Virus record (IMG/VR): IMGVR_UViG_3300024262_000003 | Span: 1 to 48,953 of that record | Length of the DNA stretch: 48,953 nucleotides | Strand: one strand, 5' to 3' | Origin: a virus | In this document: positions 4,803-36,204 of the stretch, piece after piece | Layout of the letters: each line of letters opens with the position of its first letter | Numbering within the stretch: the stretch's first letter is position 1 | The notes under the pieces: model-generated | What the model was told of the DNA's origin: nothing | Seen by the model: only the letters and a program-made list of their open reading frames with translations | The model's database searches: none | Made by a program: the position numbers and the translations under genes

Positions 4803-7328
4803 TTAATATCTGCGTGACGGTGCGTTGATACTGAGTGCTGGATAGGGGGTCGCGGATGGTGCTTCGGCTTTTTCTTGAGTGAGTGCTTTAAACGCGCCGC
4901 TGAGTGCATCAACAATATCATCATGCGGTCCGTGCGGGAACAAAACCAACTCGGAAAGGACGTCTGCTGTCCACGCAGCACGAAGTATTTTTACATTGCC
5001 ATTTTCGGATGCAGCCGAGAAGGGCTGCGCTCTTGCTACTTTAGAGCTTGTGCTGGGTACGCCTCTAAACGCATATCCCCGTAATATATTTCGTGCGTAG
5101 TGATCTATTGTAATCGGTCCGCCAGAGCCGGGCTCCTGTTCCATATAGATCGGTATATCGTAGCCATCTATCTGTGCCGTTTGCTTAATGATTGCTTCGG
5201 TTGTTGCAGGTGAATGTCGAAACCGCACGATGTCCTTGATGTAAAAAACACCGTTGTTTTCCAGCATAAGACCACCTATCGTCCAGTCGGGATCTGAACC
5301 CGCTTTATCTTCTGTTGATGCCATGTCCCAGAATCGCGCTTGATCTCCCGCTGGTGTAGAGGTTACTATCTCAAACCAGTTGCGCTTAAACATCTTTCCG
5401 CCCTGTCTCATCAACTCTACATCGTTCATGTACTGGAGATTGAAAATCGTTGAACCAAGTGTTGCTCTGATGGTTTCTAAACCTTCTGTTTTTCTGCCGT
5501 CTTCTATTCTATCGTTCAGAGGCATGTGCATCTCCCAGATACTCGTGCCGTCTTTTTTAATCGCCTGTTGTATCTGCGTATCGTAGCCGAGTTCGTCAGT
5601 TACCATCTCCCAGAGGTCGTTATAATGATAGCGAGTATTGTGTGTGACAAATCCTTCCGCAATGAAGTTGTGTGTCTTTTCAACTGCTAAGTCCCATACC
5701 TCTTCTCTTCCAACCGACTTTATTTCTTGAATGGTTTCAAATCTAAAATTTTTATATGGAAATTTCTTTTTTGCTTCCCCTTTCAGCCTATACATCCCAT
5801 ATGCTTTATTGAATGTTAAATTTAAATGCCATGTTTCGCTACGTATCGGCTTTGGGCTATTTGGTGGTTGAGAGATTCTCGTTCTGTAATATATGTTGGA
5901 AGTAAGAACACCAGAGATTCTACATAATAATTGCAGATCGTCAATTAGCTTTTTACTTGAAGATTCTATTCCGAAAAATGAAGGATGCTTTTTTCGCTTA
6001 GCTTTTCGCTTTTTATCTTTATGCTGTTGCCATCCATCTGCACTTAGTAATCCGTGTATAAAAGCAATGCGATTCTTTAAAGAGGTTTTGAAAATCCAAG
6101 TGGGTATGTCTTTATTTTTTGCCCCGTGTTTTAAACCTAAATCTTTTAACTTTTCACCAACTTTTTTAGAAGTCCCCATATAAACGCGAGAGGAAACGTT
6201 TAAACGTAAATCAATATTAAAGAGAGATTTGAATAGCCTCACCACTTTTTCATTTAATGAATGATATTGTCCTTTTGCAAAGCATATCTTCCATGTTGTA
6301 TATATCTTATCTGATTTTCCATTTGTCCGCGAATTTTGGACTATCCAGCCATCACCAACCATAAATCCAAATAACCACGCGAAATCGGAAGTATCTATCG
6401 TATTTCCAGCATCTATCTCTTTTATTGTAACAAGCATATCATTCGGCTTTAATTCGGAGGCAATTTTCCACGTGAACGTAAAATCGTAAATATGATTATA
6501 TCGCCTTGAGGGGAACTTTTTTTCGGAAATTGGTTCTATAATTAGAAAAGGATGGATACCGTTTGCTTTTATTTTTGATCTTTCGGTTATTATTTCAAGT
6601 ATTTCATCTGTACCTTGGGGGATGGTTTCTTCTACATATTGAGTCGTGAGTTTCCCCTTATCAAAAGTATATACTTTTTCACCTTTGCAAATTGTTTCAA
6701 TGTTTTTCCATGTGTTGTCACCCGTTAATATTTTCGTGCTTTTTGGTAAGCAACCTAAACAGTGAATCTCTCCGCCTGGCAGCAGAGTCGGAAGTAAAGT
6801 CGTCTTAAACCATTCCTTGCTGCGTTCTCTTTGCCCTTCTGTCCTTGCATTGTCAAAGTTGATTAAGTCGTCTGCTATGATTATATCGTAGTGTCCAGTC
6901 GTTACAGCACCGGAATACATACCCATTGCACTTATTGTCGCTTCTGTGAGCGTCTTATCCGTGCGGGTCTTCAGAACTATTTCGTGATCCGTCCATTTAT
7001 CGCCTTTCACATCGCCGTAATATCGCTTTATTAACGGGTGTGATTCTATGACTGCTTTTATCGTGCCTAAGAACCTGACTGCGTGCGTGTCCGTATCCGA
7101 AACGATAAGGATTCTGATGTTAGGATTGTTCACCGCTTTCCATGCAGAGTAACCTATATCGCCTATTCTTGTCTTGCCACAGCCTCTCGGTGCAAGGTCT
7201 AACGTTTGCTGATATTGTTCGTAATGCTCTAATATCCTGAGATGCGGTTCCGCGGTCTTATAGTCGAAGATTCGTTTTATGAATTGCTCTGGCGAGTCCC
7301 GCAAATACTGGACTTCAGCTATCTGCAT
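4803..7328 (-). CDS. terL: Terminase large subunit with an intein
   Basis: An 841-residue precursor. The extein ATPase carries Walker A near residues 46-53 (APRGCGKT) and Walker B near 148-154 (DIIIADD). The nuclease half shows Asp668 in FWDMAST, Glu730 in MEQEPG and the acidic pair in HDDIVDAL near 802-808. After removal of residues 193-564 the mature protein is about 469 residues, normal for TerL. It cuts and pumps viral DNA into proheads and docks on the portal. Start ATG overlaps the small-subunit gene end by 14 bases, consistent with coupling. Confidence 0.92.
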   Translation of the reverse strand: MQIAEVQYLRDSPEQFIKRIFDYKTAEPHLRILEHYEQYQQTLDLAPRGCGKTRIGDIGYSAWKAVNNPNIRILIVSDTDTHAVRFLGTIKAVIESHPLIKRYYGDVKGDKWTDHEIVLKTRTDKTLTEATISAMGMYSGAVTTGHYDIIIADDLINFDNARTEGQRERSKEWFKTTLLPTLLPGGEIHCLGCLPKSTKILTGDNTWKNIETICKGEKVYTFDKGKLTTQYVEETIPQGTDEILEIITERSKIKANGIHPFLIIEPISEKKFPSRRYNHIYDFTFTWKIASELKPNDMLVTIKEIDAGNTIDTSDFAWLFGFMVGDGWIVQNSRTNGKSDKIYTTWKICFAKGQYHSLNEKVVRLFKSLFNIDLRLNVSSRVYMGTSKKVGEKLKDLGLKHGAKNKDIPTWIFKTSLKNRIAFIHGLLSADGWQQHKDKKRKAKRKKHPSFFGIESSSKKLIDDLQLLCRISGVLTSNIYYRTRISQPPNSPKPIRSETWHLNLTFNKAYGMYRLKGEAKKKFPYKNFRFETIQEIKSVGREEVWDLAVEKTHNFIAEGFVTHNTRYHYNDLWEMVTDELGYDTQIQQAIKKDGTSIWEMHMPLNDRIEDGRKTEGLETIRATLGSTIFNLQYMNDVELMRQGGKMFKRNWFEIVTSTPAGDQARFWDMASTEDKAGSDPDWTIGGLMLENNGVFYIKDIVRFRHSPATTEAIIKQTAQIDGYDIPIYMEQEPGSGGPITIDHYARNILRGYAFRGVPSTSSKVARAQPFSAASENGNVKILRAAWTADVLSELVLFPHGPHDDIVDALSGAFKALTQEKAEAPSATPYPALSINAPSRRY
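5637..6752 (-). mobile_element. Intein with DOD homing endonuclease inside terL
   Basis: Residues 193-564 of the terminase precursor (372 residues). It begins with the splicing cysteine in CLPKSTKILTGD and ends HN before a Thr extein residue (FVTHN then TRYHYNDL), as needed for protein splicing. Two LAGLIDADG blocks are visible, FGFMVGDGW near 320-328 and IHGLLSADGW near 424-433, so the endonuclease may still be active. Insertion is exactly inside the conserved Gly-Thr-Arg motif of the terminase ATPase. The DNA is visibly more A+T-rich than the flanking exteins, as expected for an element acquired separately. Confidence 0.93.
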
Positions 7329-8250: not shown

Positions 8251-8994
8251 TTAAAGGAGGGCTGCATCGTCGCCTTCGTTCTGCCCTTGGTAGTGCTCCA
8301 GCACAATGTCGCACATCTTGGATATAATCATGCCCACACTCCGTATATCCTCATGCTCTCGTGTCTTCGTAAGCGTTTCTTTAAATTTCTCAAAATAGGA
8401 TAGTTCCGATAGCCCTACCAATTCCGCGTCAGGATCTATGGTAGAAATTACCTCTTCAAACTTCTCTAACTGATGCGGCAAGAAAAGAAATGTTGCTACC
8501 TTAAAATTTATGTCCGTTTCAATGTCCCCTATATTGATCGATGTAGTATCCAACTGTGCATTCAAAACATCTTCGTCAACATAGGCTTCCAGCCGTGCCT
8601 CTGCGGAGTTTATGCTGTTGTATAGTTCTGCCAACAGCTCGGGGTCGTCAAAGCCGGAGATAGTATTATGTGCAATCTGCTTCGCTTTTATCTCGTCCCG
8701 GGTCAAGCCCGACGTATCCAACAATATATATATGTCCGTTATGTTCGCTACGCGCGCCGCTCTGACCCTGTGATGACCCGAGACTATTTCGATGCCCTTG
8801 TCCGTCTTCACACAGTAAGGGAGCGATTCCAACGTGCCCCGGCTGCCTATATTTTTGATTAGCTGACGCATAGCCGTGTTCGGCAGGATACGCGGGTTTA
8901 TATCCTGCTCCCGGAGGCTATCAATATGCACCTGCTTTATCAACATCCCGTTGCCGAGGTCTAATTCTTTTCTGCTTTCTTTTTTGGTTTCCAT
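8251..8994 (-). CDS. ParB-like N-terminal domain protein
   Basis: A 247-residue protein. Residues 20-100 form a ParB/sulfiredoxin-type domain with the box GHHRVRAA (73-80), which in this superfamily binds CTP or ATP. The C-terminal half is helical without an obvious DNA-binding motif. Many tailed viruses carry such a protein beside a methyltransferase-like gene near terminase, as here, where it overlaps the upstream gene by 74 bases. A DNA-modification or nuclease role is more likely than plasmid partition, because there is no ParA. Confidence 0.75.
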   Translation of the reverse strand: METKKESRKELDLGNGMLIKQVHIDSLREQDINPRILPNTAMRQLIKNIGSRGTLESLPYCVKTDKGIEIVSGHHRVRAARVANITDIYILLDTSGLTRDEIKAKQIAHNTISGFDDPELLAELYNSINSAEARLEAYVDEDVLNAQLDTTSINIGDIETDINFKVATFLFLPHQLEKFEEVISTIDPDAELVGLSELSYFEKFKETLTKTREHEDIRSVGMIISKMCDIVLEHYQGQNEGDDAALL

Positions 8995-10345
8995 AGTTTC
9001 GTTCTTCCTTTAACCACTCTAACAAACAGCCCTTAAAGGGCTTGACTTTGAAAGGCGTTTTGTATCTCAATCGGTATAGCCCGTTTTTAAGTACGGATGA
9101 ATCGTATATTTCGAGGATGCCCCTATCTTCACGTGCTTCAGGATATTTGCTGATAGTGGTGGAGGTTATGTATCGCTTTGGAAATAACTCGTTCTTAGGT
9201 GTTATTGCCTGCAAAAAATCAGTACACGTTATGACTCGCATAGCCAGCCTCCCAAGATGCTTGTACCTGCGGTTCGGTGCTACGAGTCCGAAGATTTCTG
9301 TTGCGGTGAAGTCGGGACCTGCACTTCTGAAATACATGATGCCACGCACCGAAAAGATTTTCTGGTCAACCAGGAGCAATACGTTAACCTCTGCCTGTGA
9401 GACGCCCAACCGATGCACGAACAAATCCCTATAATACATTGCCTGGGCGTGAGTTATGTGCACAACACTTATTTCGCTCTCTTCGGTTATCTCGTCCTTG
9501 TCGGTCAGAATGGGATAAGGTGCTCGTTCCGGTTCGTCTGTGTTTGGCCTTTTTGCCCGGATTATATCAAGGTCTTTATTCACATACAAATATTCTGCCT
9601 CGGCTTTGTTGTCTTGATGTGCAAAGAACGAATACCACTCTTTAACAATTTCGTCCTCTTTATTTTTCTCTCTGAGATAGACTACCGCCGTTGCTTTCGT
9701 TTGCCTCAAACCGTCCATCATAGGAGCGAAGTCTGTTTTTGGATCAAACTGCGGGATATTAGGCTCTTTCCATTGAATTGTTTCCGTATCAAACATACTT
9801 ACGTAATCTCTGCTGGAAAATACCGGCGGGTTGATGAAGATAAACGCATCTTGGTCCTTCCATTCGTCTAACATCACACGCACATCCATTATCTCATATT
9901 TGATGCCGTCTAACCGCTCTTTCAATGCGTTTAAATCATTTATGAGTTTCTCTACATGCCGTTCCTTATTCCGTTTCAAATCTTCCAGGACTTCCGTAAG
10001 ATAGTAGTTGCTCGGTTTTATGCTGCCGAGCTTTAGGTGATATAGGGTTTCTGCAATACCAGTAATGTCCGGTGTTATCTTCTCGCCTTGAATTGTTACG
10101 CCCAACTCGGCTATATCTTTATTGCTGAGGTAGTAACCAATTAAGGAAGAAAAAAGCGATATGTCACCCGTTATTATCTGCTCTGGATTTACCCCGGCAC
10201 CTACAAATGTATCGGCAAGCGCAAACCGCCCCGTGCAAGGGATTACATAGGTTTTGTAATTGGTCTCCCGTATAATCTGGGCCGTTATGTTTCTGACGGC
10301 CTGTTTCGGTATTCCGAAAAAAAGAGCGTTCAATGCTTGATACAT
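8921..10345 (-). CDS. Methyltransferase-like DNA-modification protein
   Basis: 474 residues from ATG 10345 (a TTG two codons earlier would overlap the tRNA-like gene). Residues 1-70 (FFGIPKQA, IPCTGRFALAD, IITGDISLFSS) fit the SAM-binding half of an amino-methyltransferase, and INPP (171-174) fits the catalytic NPPY-type motif. The C-terminal 200 residues look like a separate acyltransferase-like domain, possibly of the Mom type; that part is tentative. Related phage proteins are annotated as antirestriction adenine methyltransferases. It overlaps the ParB-like gene, so the two probably work together to modify virion DNA. Confidence 0.6.
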   Translation of the reverse strand: MYQALNALFFGIPKQAVRNITAQIIRETNYKTYVIPCTGRFALADTFVGAGVNPEQIITGDISLFSSLIGYYLSNKDIAELGVTIQGEKITPDITGIAETLYHLKLGSIKPSNYYLTEVLEDLKRNKERHVEKLINDLNALKERLDGIKYEIMDVRVMLDEWKDQDAFIFINPPVFSSRDYVSMFDTETIQWKEPNIPQFDPKTDFAPMMDGLRQTKATAVVYLREKNKEDEIVKEWYSFFAHQDNKAEAEYLYVNKDLDIIRAKRPNTDEPERAPYPILTDKDEITEESEISVVHITHAQAMYYRDLFVHRLGVSQAEVNVLLLVDQKIFSVRGIMYFRSAGPDFTATEIFGLVAPNRRYKHLGRLAMRVITCTDFLQAITPKNELFPKRYITSTTISKYPEAREDRGILEIYDSSVLKNGLYRLRYKTPFKVKPFKGCLLEWLKEERNYGNQKRKQKRIRPRQRDVDKAGAY

Positions 10346-10351
10346 CGCCAA

Positions 10352-10990: not shown

Positions 10991-11131
10991 TTATTCAGCA
11001 TCCTCCGCTTTGAATGTGAAGGCATACGCTCTTCCTGCGTATTTTTGGCATAGCTTTTCCAAGTCGTCTATAAACCGCTCGTCACTCGCTTCTTTCGGTA
11101 CTTCCACCCGTAGATTTTCTATTAATATCAT
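10991..11131 (-). CDS. Microprotein, 46 residues, coupled to RFC-like gene
   Basis: Reads MILIENLRVEVPKEASDERF and continues for 26 residues, ending in an acidic tail. Its ATG overlaps the TGA of the RFC-like gene (ATGA), a strong sign of coupled translation. No family recognised; it may be a partner of the ATPase. Confidence 0.6.
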   Translation of the reverse strand: MILIENLRVEVPKEASDERFIDDLEKLCQKYAGRAYAFTFKAEDAE

Positions 11132-11745
11132 ATCATCATCGCCGCCTTTTGCAGTTCGTTTATTGCATGTCTGATATCGCCATTAGCCGCTACCGCTATC
11201 TCTCTGCACAATCCTTTTGGCAGTCGCTTCTTTTCGGTCTTGAGGATTCGTTTCAGCCGCAGCTCTATAACATCATTTGCTAACGGACCCAACTTAAACT
11301 CTGTCATCCTACTAATGACCGCTTCGTTAAACTCTTTATAATTGTTCGCGGTAAAGATGAAAACGGTGCGGCCTCGGTTCTCTATAGGTTTCCGTATAGC
11401 TTCTTGCGTAGATGGACATAGCCCGTCTGCTTCGTCAATCAATATGATTTTCGGTTTGGATGGATCGAATGGCATATAGCGTACTGCATTCACACACAGA
11501 TTCCAGATGAAATTTGTACGGTCGTCGCTACCATTGATCTCGGTGAAGTTCTGTGAAGAAGCGACGCCTAATACTTCTGAGACAATCGCATGTGCTAAAG
11601 TGGTCTTCCCTGTGCCGGGTGGTCCGTGAAATAGAAGATTTGGTAAGCCGCCGTTGTTCATGTAGCCTCTTATCGCTTTGATTGCTTCATCTTGCCCTAC
11701 AATATCATTTAAGCACTTAGGCCGGTATTTCTCTGTCCACTGCAT
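11128..11745 (-). CDS. RFC small-subunit-like AAA+ ATPase lacking the collar domain
   Basis: 205 residues, closely like archaeal RFC-S: WTEKYRPKCLNDIVGQ at the start, Walker A GPPGTGKT (41-48), Walker B LIDEAD (102-107), sensor-1 FTANN, SRM in place of the usual SRC box, and sensor-2 GDIRHAINEL (189-198). Cellular RFC-S is about 320 residues; the C-terminal collar that holds the pentamer together is absent and the ORF stops cleanly. With the viral PCNA it may replace or poison one host clamp-loader subunit, or load the viral clamp with host subunits. Not a frameshift as far as I can see. Confidence 0.88.
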   Translation of the reverse strand: MQWTEKYRPKCLNDIVGQDEAIKAIRGYMNNGGLPNLLFHGPPGTGKTTLAHAIVSEVLGVASSQNFTEINGSDDRTNFIWNLCVNAVRYMPFDPSKPKIILIDEADGLCPSTQEAIRKPIENRGRTVFIFTANNYKEFNEAVISRMTEFKLGPLANDVIELRLKRILKTEKKRLPKGLCREIAVAANGDIRHAINELQKAAMMI

Positions 11746-12353: not shown

Positions 12354-13223
12354 TTACTGACTCGCCTCCTTTTGCAGTAGGTAGTTTACTGCTTTTTGTG
12401 CCTGACTCGCTGCTTTTACGATCCAAGTTGGATTCTCCTTCAGCTTACTATGCCAGGTCTGGATGTAGCTCGCGTTATGTTCAAGTACCTTCCCAGATAT
12501 GCCACTCATCGCGCTGAGGAATGCAGCACCGATCTCAGCCACAAGTTCTTCGAGACTGTATTTTTCCGAGCCGAAGTTTACTGGATCTACTACACCTGGA
12601 CGTCCCAGCCTCTTTTTCGCACCGGTGCTGTGGACGGTTTCGTGGAACCGCGAGCTATAGAAGTATTCCGATTCGTTGTAGCTCGTTATGGGCGGCAAAT
12701 AGATTATGTCCTTGCTCGGGACATAAACAGGTGATGCCCCATCCTTTATCTCCGGCAAGCCTGCTACGAAGCTATTAATGAGATTTTCGCAGGTCGGTAG
12801 TTGCTCGATCTCGTTCTTCTTGGGCAGGTCTGCTTCAGTCCAACCGTCGATCTGGGCGAGATTGAATAGATAATAATAGCGTAACACGCGCGCCTGCTTC
12901 TCCTCGTCCTTACCGGTAAAGTCGTTTTTGACTGCTTTTTGATAGACTTTCCAGAACACCACGAGATTGCCCTTCTCGCCTTTGCGGACATGCCAGCCAT
13001 GTTTCCGGGCACCGTTGTAGGTCAAGTAGTATGGTAACGACCAACCTTGTATCTTCTGTAAGAACCAGAGATACATGAGATTGAAGCCGCTGTACGGTCG
13101 CTTACTGTCGATGTTCTGTGGCATACCCGCGAGTGCGTCCCATTCCTGATGCCAAGGCACTACGCCCTGATCAAGCAGGTTTAAGATCTGTTCCGTTACA
13201 ATGTCATATACTTTGTTTGTCAT
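12354..13223 (-). CDS. ardC: ArdC-type antirestriction protein (DUF1738 plus zincin)
   Basis: 289 residues from the ATG at 13223. The N-terminal domain shows the ssDNA-binding ArdC pattern (YDIVTEQILNLLDQGVVPWH, then PYSGFNLMYLW and KGEKGNLVVFWK). The C-terminal domain has a zincin HETVH motif followed by EELVAEIGAAFL. ArdC proteins of plasmids and phages protect incoming DNA from restriction. A GTG nine codons upstream is possible, but the small gene 13225-13368 ends one base before the ATG and provides the ribosome site, so ATG 13223 is preferred. Confidence 0.85.
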   Translation of the reverse strand: MTNKVYDIVTEQILNLLDQGVVPWHQEWDALAGMPQNIDSKRPYSGFNLMYLWFLQKIQGWSLPYYLTYNGARKHGWHVRKGEKGNLVVFWKVYQKAVKNDFTGKDEEKQARVLRYYYLFNLAQIDGWTEADLPKKNEIEQLPTCENLINSFVAGLPEIKDGASPVYVPSKDIIYLPPITSYNESEYFYSSRFHETVHSTGAKKRLGRPGVVDPVNFGSEKYSLEELVAEIGAAFLSAMSGISGKVLEHNASYIQTWHSKLKENPTWIVKAASQAQKAVNYLLQKEASQ

Positions 13224-13224
13224 C

Positions 13225-13368
13225 TCACCATCTCCATATATGTCCTTCACAATGGCTCGCTTCGTCAGTTACGCTATCGCATTCGATGTCGAATATGCTA
13301 CACATCTTCTTACCGTCTTTGGTATAATTATGGATGCAGTCGCCGTAATCCTCTCCAATTAGGCTCAT
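13225..13368 (-). CDS. Cys-containing microprotein upstream of ArdC (47 residues)
   Basis: Begins MSLIGEDYGDCIHNYTKDGK; four cysteines (C11, C23, C30, C40) and several His could bind metal. GGAGGTGA lies 8 bases before its ATG, and its TGA is one base from the ArdC ATG. No family recognised. Confidence 0.6.
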   Translation of the reverse strand: MSLIGEDYGDCIHNYTKDGKKMCSIFDIECDSVTDEASHCEGHIWRW

Positions 13369-14671: not shown

Positions 14672-15192
14672 CTTACAGCCCTCAATTTGAATATCTGCTT
14701 TAAACTATCTCTTACCCGGTCGTCTGGATGCTTTCGTGCTTTGAACAGTTCTCGTTTCAGCTTCCGTTGCTTTAAGCGGTCTAAGTTTGCTAAGAACCAG
14801 TCTACATCACTATTCTTTTTTAAGAAATTACACTCAGCACAGCAAAAAATTAAATTCTGCGGTGTGTCTGATCCTCCTTTTGAGCGCGGGATTACGTGAT
14901 CTATCGAAAAGCTTTTTTCGTTTTCAAATTTAAGCCCCATTTTTTCACCGCAATAATAGCATTTAAAGCCGTTTTGTACACTCTTGATATATTTAGCGTA
15001 TAGCTCTTCTTTTGTGGTTTCGTCTAACTTAAGCGGTTTTATTCTGCGATTAAACTCTTTTCTCTCTCTTATCGTTTCTGCATCCTGATATTCATTACAG
15101 GTCCTCGCAAGCGTTACCGGCAATATTTTACCGTTGTAGTTATCGTAAAGTTTGCATTCTTTCCTCTTTATGCAGTTCTCACAGGATTTCAT
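14668..15192 (-). CDS. HNH endonuclease
   Basis: 174 residues. Central HNH domain: CYYCGEKMG, then SIDHVIPRSKGGSDTPQN and CCAECNFLKK, with all zinc ligands and the catalytic DH pair. An N-terminal cysteine cluster (CENCIKRKEC) may add a second zinc site. The 4-base overlap with the end of the methyltransferase gene suggests a modification/nuclease pair, or a free-standing homing nuclease that settled next to it. Confidence 0.8.
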   Translation of the reverse strand: MKSCENCIKRKECKLYDNYNGKILPVTLARTCNEYQDAETIRERKEFNRRIKPLKLDETTKEELYAKYIKSVQNGFKCYYCGEKMGLKFENEKSFSIDHVIPRSKGGSDTPQNLIFCCAECNFLKKNSDVDWFLANLDRLKQRKLKRELFKARKHPDDRVRDSLKQIFKLRAVR

Positions 15193-16241
15193 TTTTCTGT
15201 TTCTTTTATTCTCTGCGCAATAAACTGCGCGACTTGCGGAACAACTGCGTTTCCGAGGAATTTAAGTCGGTCCACCCTCTTGGGAATCCCATCAGCCACT
15301 CGACCCACTCTGGATTCAGTTGACCACCCTCCTTTGCTATTATTGTTAAATCCCTCTGGTTCTGAGATAGAAGATATTTCCCTACGGTGTTCTCGTTGTC
15401 GTGTGGTCTTGGTGTCATCGGTGTCGGGTATGTCTGCGGGATCTCTTCGCCAGATTCCTTGCATATTTTGCTCTCTGAGTTCTCTGAGTTGTAAACTTCC
15501 TCGTTCAGCATCAAAAATGGCGAGTGGCTGTTCACTCGTTTCGGGCTGCGGTAATCTCTGTATTGTGATGTTGGCCACATCTTCTTCGCTTCCTCGTAAC
15601 TTGGTCGCTTCAGATTGCTCCATGCGAATCGCGCCTGCTCTACGTCCGCCATCGTTACCGTTGAGTTGGTTGGAGTCGGCCACATCTGTACCGCATCGTT
15701 CAAATCTATTCCAACTCCCCTCTTGTAACCTTTCCTCTCGCCTTTCCAATCCCTCGAATTTGGGGTAGGCCACGATAAACAGCCGTCTCCGGAGGTGTCG
15801 TGCTCCAACGGATCGCGCCGATACAATATTCCATTCCGCATCATACCCGATTTCGGCAAGGTCTCCAAGCACAACGTTGAGTCCTTTGTTAATGAGGTTT
15901 GGTACGTTCTCAATGACCGCGTAGCGGGGTCGTAATATGCGAATGGCTTCTTTGTAATAGACCCATAATCCACTCCTCGATCCCACGATGCCTTCGCCTT
16001 TGGGATTTGCACACGAGATATCTTGGCATGGGAAGCCTCCTGTGAGGATGTCAACAGATTCAAGTCTTGTAAAGTCAACTGTGCTGATGTCTCCATAGAT
16101 GGGTACATCTGGCCAATGTTTTCTGAGGACTGCTTTACAGTATTCGTTATTCTCGATGAACCATTTCGTTTCAAAACCTTCGCGTTTAAATCCCAATTCA
16201 ATGCCACCCACCCCCGAAAATAAAGAACCTACGGTTAGCAT
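15189..16241 (-). CDS. DNA (cytosine-5) methyltransferase
   Basis: 350 residues. Motif I VGSLFSGVGGIELG, motif IV GGFPCQDIS with catalytic Cys72, motif VI IENVPNL (111-113), motif VIII GARHLRRRLFIVA (147-158), motif X LGNAVVPQVA near 330. The target-recognition region is short and low in hydrophobics. It methylates cytosine in DNA, probably to evade host restriction. The start ATG follows directly on the inserted HNH gene. A second long ORF runs through the same DNA in another frame. Confidence 0.9.
   Translation of the reverse strand: MLTVGSLFSGVGGIELGFKREGFETKWFIENNEYCKAVLRKHWPDVPIYGDISTVDFTRLESVDILTGGFPCQDISCANPKGEGIVGSRSGLWVYYKEAIRILRPRYAVIENVPNLINKGLNVVLGDLAEIGYDAEWNIVSARSVGARHLRRRLFIVAYPKFEGLERREERLQEGSWNRFERCGTDVADSNQLNGNDGGRRAGAIRMEQSEATKLRGSEEDVANITIQRLPQPETSEQPLAIFDAERGSLQLRELREQNMQGIWRRDPADIPDTDDTKTTRQREHRREISSISEPEGFNNNSKGGWSTESRVGRVADGIPKRVDRLKFLGNAVVPQVAQFIAQRIKETEK
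15206..16207 (-). CDS. Overprinted ORF inside the methyltransferase gene
   Basis: A 333-codon ORF on the same strand in a different frame, nearly as long as the host gene. It carries patterns I recognise from phage methyltransferase-associated proteins: TLCLETLPKSGMMRNG, WPTPNSRDWKG, a second WPTP and, near the end, LNPEWVEWLMGFPRGWTDL. The same bases encode methyltransferase motif X in the other frame. Whether the protein is made is unknown; no separate strong ribosome site is seen at its ATG. Either a real overlapping gene or a frame shadow of a very constrained sequence. Confidence 0.4.
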   Translation of the reverse strand: MALNWDLNAKVLKRNGSSRITNTVKQSSENIGQMYPSMETSAQLTLQDLNLLTSSQEASHAKISRVQIPKAKASWDRGVDYGSITKKPFAYYDPATRSLRTYQTSLTKDSTLCLETLPKSGMMRNGILYRRDPLEHDTSGDGCLSWPTPNSRDWKGERKGYKRGVGIDLNDAVQMWPTPTNSTVTMADVEQARFAWSNLKRPSYEEAKKMWPTSQYRDYRSPKRVNSHSPFLMLNEEVYNSENSESKICKESGEEIPQTYPTPMTPRPHDNENTVGKYLLSQNQRDLTIIAKEGGQLNPEWVEWLMGFPRGWTDLNSSETQLFRKSRSLLRRE

Positions 16242-20116: not shown

Positions 20117-20872
20117 TTAATCTTCTTCTGGTAGTATCCTCGGTGCAAGCATATACGTTACTTTCCCCTTACCTGCGATATCGAAGTCAAATCGAATCGG
20201 ATAGTCAGTTCTTAATGATAGCTTTATCGTTTCCGTGTGCATACCAGAGCACATCGCTGAAAGGTACTCTATTGAGTGTGAAGAACATACATCTCCGATA
20301 TGAGGTAGCTGCCCCAAAACGGCCTTTAGCGTGCCCAGTTCTCCTTTACCAAGCATATATATCTCTCCATCCTTTACACCGATATTTACGAAATCCTCAC
20401 AAACCAATTTTAGAGACTGTATTGCTTCCCTAAACAGTTCCGTTCTAACATCTGCCTGGTTGATTATAAATGTTACCTTAGGAATTATAAATGTTGCATT
20501 AGGACCTCGCGGTTCTCTTCTAAGCGATGATGGATCAAATCCTGAAACAGAATAATCGAATATACCAGATCTTACGAATAGAGTTTTTTCGCGCAGTTCA
20601 AGTTCGACTGTTTCCATTTTCCATGATTTGAGCATCCGTAATAAGTTAGCGAAATCAATGCCGATTTTTAGCTGTTCTTCAGAGGATTCAAATTCAAAGT
20701 TGTTGAAACTACTACGTGGTAACGTCAAATCAACCATTGCCACATTTGCAGGATCAACAGCATTTATTTCTAACCCGTTTTCTGTGATAGTTAGTATCGC
20801 TTCATTAGCTACTCCTACAATCGCCTCTGCACACTCTGTCAAGAATTCCACACTTGTTTTTATTTTTAACAT
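20117..20872 (-). CDS. pcn: DNA sliding clamp (PCNA)
   Basis: 251 residues, full length for an archaeal clamp, with two clamp domains, the interdomain loop near residues 118-125 and the conserved C-terminal YMLAPRILPEED. Forms a trimeric ring that holds polymerases, ligase and nucleases on DNA. A viral copy with its own clamp loader-like ATPase (11128-11745) suggests the virus reroutes host replication proteins. It lies mid-operon between small zinc proteins. Confidence 0.95.
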   Translation of the reverse strand: MLKIKTSVEFLTECAEAIVGVANEAILTITENGLEINAVDPANVAMVDLTLPRSSFNNFEFESSEEQLKIGIDFANLLRMLKSWKMETVELELREKTLFVRSGIFDYSVSGFDPSSLRREPRGPNATFIIPKVTFIINQADVRTELFREAIQSLKLVCEDFVNIGVKDGEIYMLGKGELGTLKAVLGQLPHIGDVCSSHSIEYLSAMCSGMHTETIKLSLRTDYPIRFDFDIAGKGKVTYMLAPRILPEED

Positions 20873-29025: not shown

Positions 29026-29697
29026 TTACGAAATGATTACAATTTGAGAATTGTGTCCTCCTTCTGGAATCGCACCAGTATTGAGTTCGTAAATATCGGT
29101 TGTGCCCACATCAGAATGCCAAATAGCACTTGCATCGCCACCAATTCCATATGCATCAGTTGCAGGCGAATCTGCATTTCTTAACGATGAAAAGTCCAAA
29201 ACCTTCAGTTCGTAAACATCGTCGGCACTCATATCGCAACTCCATATAGTATCTGCATCGCCTCCAATTCCATATTGAAAATTCGTAGGCGCGTCATCAA
29301 ATCTCTCCACTGACAAATCAAAGACTTTAAGTTCGTAAATATCGACTGTGCCCACATCAGAATGCCAAATAACACTTGCATTACCACCAACTCCCCTTGG
29401 ATTGCCTGCAGGTGAATCTGCATTTCTTAACGATGAAAAGTCCGAAACCTTCAGTTCGTAAATATCGACTGTATTAATATCGCAATGCCAGATGACATCT
29501 GCATCACCACCAATTCCATATGGCTTGGATGAAGGTGAGTTAGCATTTCTTAACGATGAAAGGTCCGAAATCTTCAGTTCGTAAATGTCGTCTGTAGCAT
29601 AATCGCAATGCCAAATAACACTTGCATCACCTCCAACTCCGTATGGATAACCCGCAGGTGCATCTGCAAATCTTATTACATCTCCAAAATCCCCCAT
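29026..29697 (-). CDS. Repeat protein of the tail module, five 41-residue units
   Basis: 223 residues made of five tandem units with the core GIGGDAxVIWHxD then TxDIYELKVxDFSSLR, variable only at a few positions. The pattern suits a beta-propeller or beta-prism, often a sugar- or surface-binding fold. Located at the distal end of the tail operon, so a receptor-binding or fibre-tip protein is likely. The units are also alike at DNA level, so copy number could change by recombination. Confidence 0.75.
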   Translation of the reverse strand: MGDFGDVIRFADAPAGYPYGVGGDASVIWHCDYATDDIYELKISDLSSLRNANSPSSKPYGIGGDADVIWHCDINTVDIYELKVSDFSSLRNADSPAGNPRGVGGNASVIWHSDVGTVDIYELKVFDLSVERFDDAPTNFQYGIGGDADTIWSCDMSADDVYELKVLDFSSLRNADSPATDAYGIGGDASAIWHSDVGTTDIYELNTGAIPEGGHNSQIVIIS

Positions 29698-35117: not shown

Positions 35118-35131
35118 AATAAAAAAGAAAA

Positions 35132-35153
35132 GGTGAGGTTATAGAACCTCACC
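35132..35153 (-). terminator. Terminator hairpin before the tail hub unit
   Basis: GGTGAGGTT/AACCTCACC, 9 pairs with a 4-base loop, followed on the minus strand by TTTTCTTTTTT. It ends the DUF559 transcript just before late promoter copy 3. Its right arm is built from the first unit of the pentanucleotide array. Confidence 0.75.
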
Positions 35154-35254
35154 GTACCTTGCCGGGCCTTACTTGACCAAATCGAACCTGATCCCACCCC
35201 AACAGACCTTACACAACCTAAACAAACCCTACCATACACATCAGATAACTGATG
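35147..35254 (-). repeat. Pentanucleotide array 1 plus hairpin
   Basis: 19 consecutive 5-base units (35147-35241) of plus-strand form CCNNA, or TNNGG on the minus strand, with only a few deviating units. The last unit, CACAT, runs into CATCAG-ATAA-CTGATG (35239-35254). The stop codon of the DUF559 gene lies inside this hairpin. The same architecture recurs at 35537-35639. Confidence 0.85.
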
Positions 35255-35540
35255 AGAGTAAACTATCTAAGTTATCTATTTCAGCCTCCTTTATCCTTAT
35301 TGTTCTCCATCCCGTTCGTTTAAGCATATAATCACGAAACCTATCCTTCTTTTGCTTCTTCTTACCAGAATGCCAGTGCGTACCGTCCACTTCTATCGCG
35401 ATCTTCCGATCTACTAAAGCAAAATCTATCACATAGCTCAGTCTAACTGGATATTGAGGGGTATAGTTCACCCCTCGCTTATCCAGAAATTGTCCGACTG
35501 CCTCTTCCAGGTTTGTTTTATGTATCTCGTTTCTTTCCAT
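35241..35540 (-). CDS. DUF559 / Vsr-like endonuclease
   Basis: 99 residues from ATG 35540. YVIDFALVDRKIAIEVDGTH, then a basic helix and WRTIRIKEAEI are the DUF559 core: Asp in VIDF and Glu-x-Asp in IEVDG form the PD-(D/E)XK metal site, as in Vsr mismatch nucleases. The ATG falls in the last unit of array 2 and the TGA in the hairpin of array 1, so the gene fits exactly between two repeat elements. Probably a mobile or self-maintaining nuclease cassette. Confidence 0.85.
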   Translation of the reverse strand: MERNEIHKTNLEEAVGQFLDKRGVNYTPQYPVRLSYVIDFALVDRKIAIEVDGTHWHSGKKKQKKDRFRDYMLKRTGWRTIRIKEAEIDNLDSLLSSVI

Positions 35541-35639
35541 GCCTTGCCTCGCCAAATCGTACCGCACCACACCTAATCACACCCCACCAGATCGTACCCC
35601 ACCAAAACTTACCACACCTTACACATCTGATAACAGATG
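35537..35639 (-). repeat. Pentanucleotide array 2 plus hairpin
   Basis: 18 units of CCNNA (35537-35626), again ending CACAT and followed by CATCTG-ATAA-CAGATG (35624-35639). Compared with copy 1 the stem differs at one position on both sides, so pairing is kept. It begins 4 bases after the stop of the preceding gene on the minus strand. Unit sequences are not the same as in array 1; only the phase and the C-C...A positions are kept. Confidence 0.85.
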
Positions 35640-35643
35640 AGCG

Positions 35644-36204
35644 TTATACTTTCTCCTCCAGTTCTTCTATCTCCTCAAACGATTCCAGCGTAAACAGTCC
35701 GTATAGCGGTCTGAAGTCCAGCAATCCGTTGTACTTGCCTGCGTCTTTGAGTATTTGCTTCAGGTTCTCAGGCGATATTATCGGGTCTGTTATCTCTATC
35801 ATAAACTCCAGCGTCCACTCATCGAAACGTGGTCGTGCCCTTATAATCCTACTACGGTTCACCACTACTGGTTTCAGGTCTATCTCATAACTATCCTCAG
35901 TTATAAGTGGGATCTCTACCGGCTCTATTTGTATGCCTGCGTAGATGAAGTTCTTGAAGGTCTTCTTACCCTTGCCCGGAACTTGGAAGTTCTTTGCAGA
36001 TTCACGCAGGCAGGAAAGCAAACAGAAAGAAGGCACTACAATATTGCCATCCTTATCTTTATAGAGTGCCTTTTCCGCATCTACTTTGGGATCGTATTCC
36101 TTTTTCCTTGTTGTCTTATTATTTGCCTCCTCCAGCATTGAGTTACACGAATGCATCAATAGCGGGCGTGTCCCTGTTATCCTTACCTTATAGCTTTCTG
36201 GCAT
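35644..36204 (-). CDS. Conserved viral protein, unknown function (186 residues)
   Basis: VRITGTRPLLMHS, DAEKALYKDKDGNIVVPSFC, GKGKKTFKNFIYAGIQIEP, VVNRSRIIRARPRFDEWTLE and LLDFRPLYGLFTLESFEE form a pattern of a family I have seen in tailed viruses of bacteria and archaea. A mixed alpha/beta fold with Gly-rich turns; a resemblance to RAMP/Cas7-type folds is possible but unproven. Confidence 0.65.
   Translation of the reverse strand: MPESYKVRITGTRPLLMHSCNSMLEEANNKTTRKKEYDPKVDAEKALYKDKDGNIVVPSFCLLSCLRESAKNFQVPGKGKKTFKNFIYAGIQIEPVEIPLITEDSYEIDLKPVVVNRSRIIRARPRFDEWTLEFMIEITDPIISPENLKQILKDAGKYNGLLDFRPLYGLFTLESFEEIEELEEKV

Follow-up and report, generated by a model that had tools for sequence, protein, structure and literature searches.

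The window analyzed here is a stretch of 48,953 nucleotides, comprising positions 1 to 48,953 of the viral record IMGVR_UViG_3300024262_000003, and we propose, with a probability of about 0.88, that the virus is a tailed one, probably infecting archaea, and that its minus strand carries between positions 35119 and 36204 a VIPR locus composed of a vipr gene, a first guide (A), a DUF559 nuclease as accessory gene (vap), a second guide (B) and a terminator. VIPR has been described as a phage-borne system that combines a RAMP protein (Vipr) with guide RNAs (vrRNAs) of 9-16 YNNGG repeats (PMC13142463, bioRxiv 2026). The NN pairs of these guides read double-stranded DNA skipping one base and are used against competing elements (PMC13142463), and it has been proposed that CRISPR descends from this viral system. 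The initial annotation, which singled out the same nuclease between two pentanucleotide arrays, knew of no description of such an element; VIPR is already described in the above report, and the window holds a new member of it, perhaps a variant. Read along the minus strand from 36204 to 35119, the locus presents the following features in order:

35644-36204 (-): vipr, encoding a 186-residue, Cas7-like RAMP of the phrog_4652 family (by phmmer, AlphaFold2/Foldseek and phrog_4652)
35624-35639 (-): 5' hairpin of putative vrRNA A, CATCTG-TTAT-CAGATG, read from the sequence and starting 4 bases past the vipr stop
35539-35623 (-): repeat tract of putative vrRNA A, 17 GGY-NN units (period-5 scan and unit alignment)
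35241-35540 (-): DUF559/MTES_1575 nuclease of 99 residues, candidate vap (Pfam MTES_1575, 1.1e-15; DUF559, 6.5e-11)
35239-35254 (-): 5' hairpin of putative vrRNA B, CATCAG-TTAT-CTGATG, read from the sequence and overlapping the nuclease stop codon
35144-35238 (-): repeat tract of putative vrRNA B, 19 GGY-NN units (period-5 scan and unit alignment)
35119-35153 (-): terminator-like hairpin GGTGAGGTTCTATAACCTCACC followed by a T-rich tract, read from the sequence as the end of the locus; the related loci L126 and L127 have terminator-like hairpins at the same place

The 186-residue protein matches the solved Vipr of Escherichia phage SUSP1 (KT454805; PDB 36pp), which belongs to VIPR type II, with a phmmer E-value of 4.6e-11, and the Vipr family profile with an E-value of 3e-42. 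It is likewise homologous to the Vipr copy in the SUSP1 genome itself (hhalign, 98.8%). Its AlphaFold2 model (pLDDT 93.6) retrieves Csm3 and type VII Cas7 subunits in Foldseek with a probability of 1.00, and the 50 PDB matches listed are CRISPR RAMP complexes. As judged from sequence comparison and the predicted structure, the protein has a RAMP fold with an RRM core and is a Vipr; it is this upstream gene, and not the nuclease, that is the partner of the arrays. A tree of 94 Viprs places this protein in a clade of six members, together with those of loci L126, L105, L127, L128 and L129 (support 100/98).

The linkage between arrays and vipr is a general one. Viral contigs were scanned for (GGYNN)8, yielding at least 120 loci that were chosen by the array alone. 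A Vipr homolog lies near the array in 89 of the 120 loci listed, on the same strand as the array in 87/89 and with a median spacing of about 100 bases, and in some of the 31 loci without a homolog the contig ends near the array. DUF559-type open reading frames number nine among the roughly 130 loci gathered, every one of them beside vipr or an array. Since 89 of the 120 loci hold a Vipr homolog as against these nine nucleases, arrays that accompany the 186-residue gene, and arrays that lack the nuclease, are the rule.

Arrays A and B surpass every other period-5 stretch of the window by a wide margin, with column information of 61 (A) and 57 (B) bits against 28 for the next best, and with GG-phase scores of 28 and 26 out of 32 against 19 for the next stretch. 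Across the 36 units of both arrays, the first G is present in 32, the second in 28 and the pyrimidine in all 36, and positions four and five are nearly random (1.94 bits each). The initial annotation had reported two phase-locked arrays with matched hairpins that differ by a compensated change, and this description proves correct, a single pair of the stem being exchanged; its size of 18-19 units holds for array B (19 units) but not for array A, which has 17. The G-rich strand is the minus strand in both cases, and read along it each array begins at its 5' side with the hairpin, which the initial annotation had placed at the end. The 5' hairpin is common to A and B (score 18 versus 5.9 in shuffled sequences), and their 3' flanks are unrelated (score 5 versus a shuffled mean of 4.8). 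The stem of the terminator-like hairpin (35132-35153) includes the last two units of array B.

A similar arrangement can be observed throughout the clade. Perfect stems of at least 6 bp are found 5' of 11 of its 14 arrays, compared with 3.7% of random stretches (P ~6e-14), and this test is clearer than thermodynamic folding of the hairpin region by itself, which is unremarkable for several arrays. These 5' hairpins are alike within most genomes, L127 being the exception, and differ from genome to genome, and common 3' flanks occur in clade arrays only where the hairpin of the next array comes after. Rfam holds no matching family, and a search for the hairpin as a DNA motif in viral contigs returned matches only in two unrelated contigs. 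A role for the short 5' hairpin as a 5' handle or processing site fits these observations best, and a transcription signal is conceivable as well.

Comparison with SUSP1 reveals a homologous Vipr, GGY/NN pentamer arrays that are likewise intergenic and on the vipr strand, and inverted repeats that also lie 5' of the SUSP1 arrays. The differences concern the number of repeats (17-19 in the window, 9-16 as reported), a looser GGY, with the second G in 28/36 units, and the gene next to vipr, where the window has the DUF559 nuclease in the place of vap1. They also concern the flanks of the guides, since the window arrays share a 5' hairpin and no 3' tail, whereas SUSP1 vrRNAs share both 5' and 3' flanks. 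Seven VIPR types with variable array architectures have been reported, and the 3' tail was shown for the SUSP1 clade (PMC13142463); hence, the missing invariable structured 3' tail counts against an assignment to type II, but not against VIPR. Types III-V carry nuclease or helicase vap genes, the nuclease types being enriched in defense islands, and predicted nucleases are tied to the defense-island types III and V (PMC13142463). The window shares with types III-V an enzyme as accessory gene, but its locus and the five relatives sit in viral contigs. The conserved DUF559 of this viral clade suggests a possible further use of nuclease-armed VIPR in conflicts between viruses, and the clade offers compact (186 + 99 residues), probably archaeal systems in which the conserved hairpin of the guide lies on the opposite side.

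More remote likenesses can be drawn to CRISPR and to TIGR-Tas. The Vipr of the window has the protein fold of the Cas7/Csm3 RAMPs of types III and VII, the subunits of which align along the guide RNA, but it is a single small RAMP and the period is 5 instead of 6. The locus holds no CRISPR array, repeat-spacer layout or other cas genes, and no cas domains were identified by Pfam among 25 window proteins. TIGR-Tas too is reported to be a phage-borne, compact, RNA-guided form of DNA targeting with tandem guide arrays (PMC12045711); its effector family and array layout are different ones, the window protein being a RAMP.

The DUF559 gene is confined between the two guides. Its ATG starts at 35540, within the last unit of array A, and its stop codon (35241-35243) lies within hairpin B, in full agreement with the initial annotation. 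DUF559 is found immediately downstream of vipr in 6/6 members of the clade, which carry one (L126, L128), two (window, L127) or four (L105, L129) guide arrays, and residues D39, E50, D52, G53 and H57 are invariant across three aligned clade proteins. A final YATGG repeat supplies the nuclease ATG in the window, L127, L128 and L129, while vipr and DUF559 of L126 share a few bases and have no intervening array. A single-sequence search for close relatives of the nuclease returned one spurious 10-residue match only. Its constant place behind vipr across the clade makes DUF559 most likely a conserved accessory gene (vap) of the VIPR locus and not a mobile element. The association has probably been gained, or lost, more than once, since DUF559 also neighbors Viprs that are less closely related (L063, L124), as well as an array whose contig is cut (L088).

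By homology to SUSP1, it seems reasonable to postulate transcription of the arrays into RNAs that are bound by Vipr, which, as a single small RAMP, would polymerize along each of them, every subunit occupying one 5-base unit so as to hold its GGY and leave the variable NN pairs exposed. These pairs would then read double-stranded DNA in the NNxNNx manner shown for SUSP1, in which one base is skipped, and the short hairpin may serve the guide RNA as its 5' handle or processing signal. DUF559 would cut or nick the target held by the complex, and the virus would thereby attack competing elements rather than just silence them. Taken alone, we give this last step an even chance.

The most serious alternative accepts the VIPR locus, but makes DUF559 independent of the targeting complex, for instance as an agent of competitor exclusion, with the array acting as its ribosome-binding leader and Vipr binding controlling its expression. 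The start codons within YATGG repeats in four of the loci speak in its favor, as do the G-rich units beside the ATG, which could be ribosome-binding sites, but the nuclease of L126 directly follows vipr without any array and the conserved vipr-DUF559 pair suggests a joint function. We consider this account rather improbable, if worthy of attention. Far less credit can be given to the proposal of the initial annotation, in which DUF559 forms a mobile or self-preserving element and the arrays are its recognition or recombination sites. The exact fit of the gene between two arrays and its resemblance to homing-type nucleases in PHROGs and PADLOC are congruent with such an element, but most arrays have vipr and no DUF559, an outcome that the initial annotation itself had named as speaking against its proposal, the position behind vipr is kept in six diverged genomes with no sign of insertion, L126 lacks an intervening array, and the NN content of arrays A and B is unrelated. 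Of the options then put forward, it is the one termed RNA-guide-like that agrees with the arrays, which match vrRNA guides. Finally, repetitive DNA with no RNA function, whether made of slippage repeats or acting as a hotspot of replication or recombination in the way of origin iterons, is barely credible, because although the arrays are G-rich, intergenic and of period 5, they maintain phase with two of five positions random, their strand is fixed relative to vipr in 87/89 loci, and the SUSP1 arrays, which are homologous, have been sequenced as RNAs to which Vipr binds (PMC13142463).

Within the VIPR interpretation, we tentatively envisage a distinct variant of tailed archaeal viruses, which we hold to be somewhat doubtful as a whole. 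In it, a genome-specific 5' hairpin would replace the 3' tail and the ribonucleoprotein would recruit DUF559, so that competitors would be destroyed and not silenced; where the ATG lies in the last repeat, Vipr loading may switch nuclease translation.

Several observations weigh against the assignment to VIPR. The window arrays lack the 3' tail of the SUSP1 type, the part of DUF559 in targeting is one that we infer, and neither guide has a natural target in the virus itself or in the fetched loci. Decoded as NN pairs, guide A reads AA GT AA TT GG AC CT GG GT TA GT GC AC TT GA AA AT and guide B reads AT AG TT TA TG AA CT GG GG CA TC TT CA AA CC AA AC GA TC, the two being unrelated (3/17 NN shared). 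Seeds of 9 units from guides A and B found no match in viral contigs, 12 related viral records held no guide target, the 9-unit seed of guide A gave five matches in genome contigs that are only chance-like, and guide B found none in 394 genomes from the phylum to which Natrinema zhouii belongs.

When the decoded guides of the clade were compared with all fetched loci at skips of 0-3, nothing rose above shuffled guides, save for self-matches of arrays and a few stray matches at skip 3. The skip-3 matches correspond to each array itself plus these strays, and this skip only detects other arrays. An 8-unit seed of guide B yielded four matches, the best of which (26/38) lies in frame in the FkbM methyltransferase gene of viral contig L141; it constitutes a weak lead that is compatible with chance, other choices having also been tried.

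Outside viral contigs, more distant Viprs were detected in 2/247 genomes, with no DUF559 within the stretches read, and a peptide-pattern search of limited sensitivity identified no members of the window Vipr clade in the genome collection. One of the distant loci, L144 (genome G174, contig C2; phylum of Natrinema zhouii), presents a single array 5' of vipr and no DUF559 nearby. Among the viral loci, L039 (6930-7133) and L010 (3722-3763, with flanks) harbor stretches resembling a tRNA T-arm and acceptor end (GGTTCGACTCC) between consecutive GGY arrays; these are recognized neither by ARAGORN nor by Rfam and are possibly a processing signal for guide RNAs. In a similar vein, consecutive arrays in L006 (640-1230) are set apart by a structured spacer that is nearly identical each time (GGGCCTTATTGC...GGCGGCTAA..CCGCC).

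The record as a whole, a virus fragment of 49 kb, carries tail-tube and tape-measure genes, a portal-like gene and a terminase, the large subunit of which (4803-7328, minus strand) is interrupted in frame by an intein (Pfam Intein_splicing and LAGLIDADG_3). The virus is tailed and its host probably archaeal, the latter because two replication-like genes point to an archaeal host:

11128-11745 (-): RFC-like clamp-loader ATPase
20117-20872 (-): PCNA-like sliding clamp

Three further minus-strand genes encode a fusion of DAM-like and GNAT-like domains (8921-10351), an ArdC-like antirestriction protein (12354-13250) and a C5 cytosine methylase (15189-16241), which might represent a counter-defense set of the same virus. 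Lastly, tandem repeats of 123/246 bases lie at 29084-29675, within a coding region beside likely tail or fiber genes.
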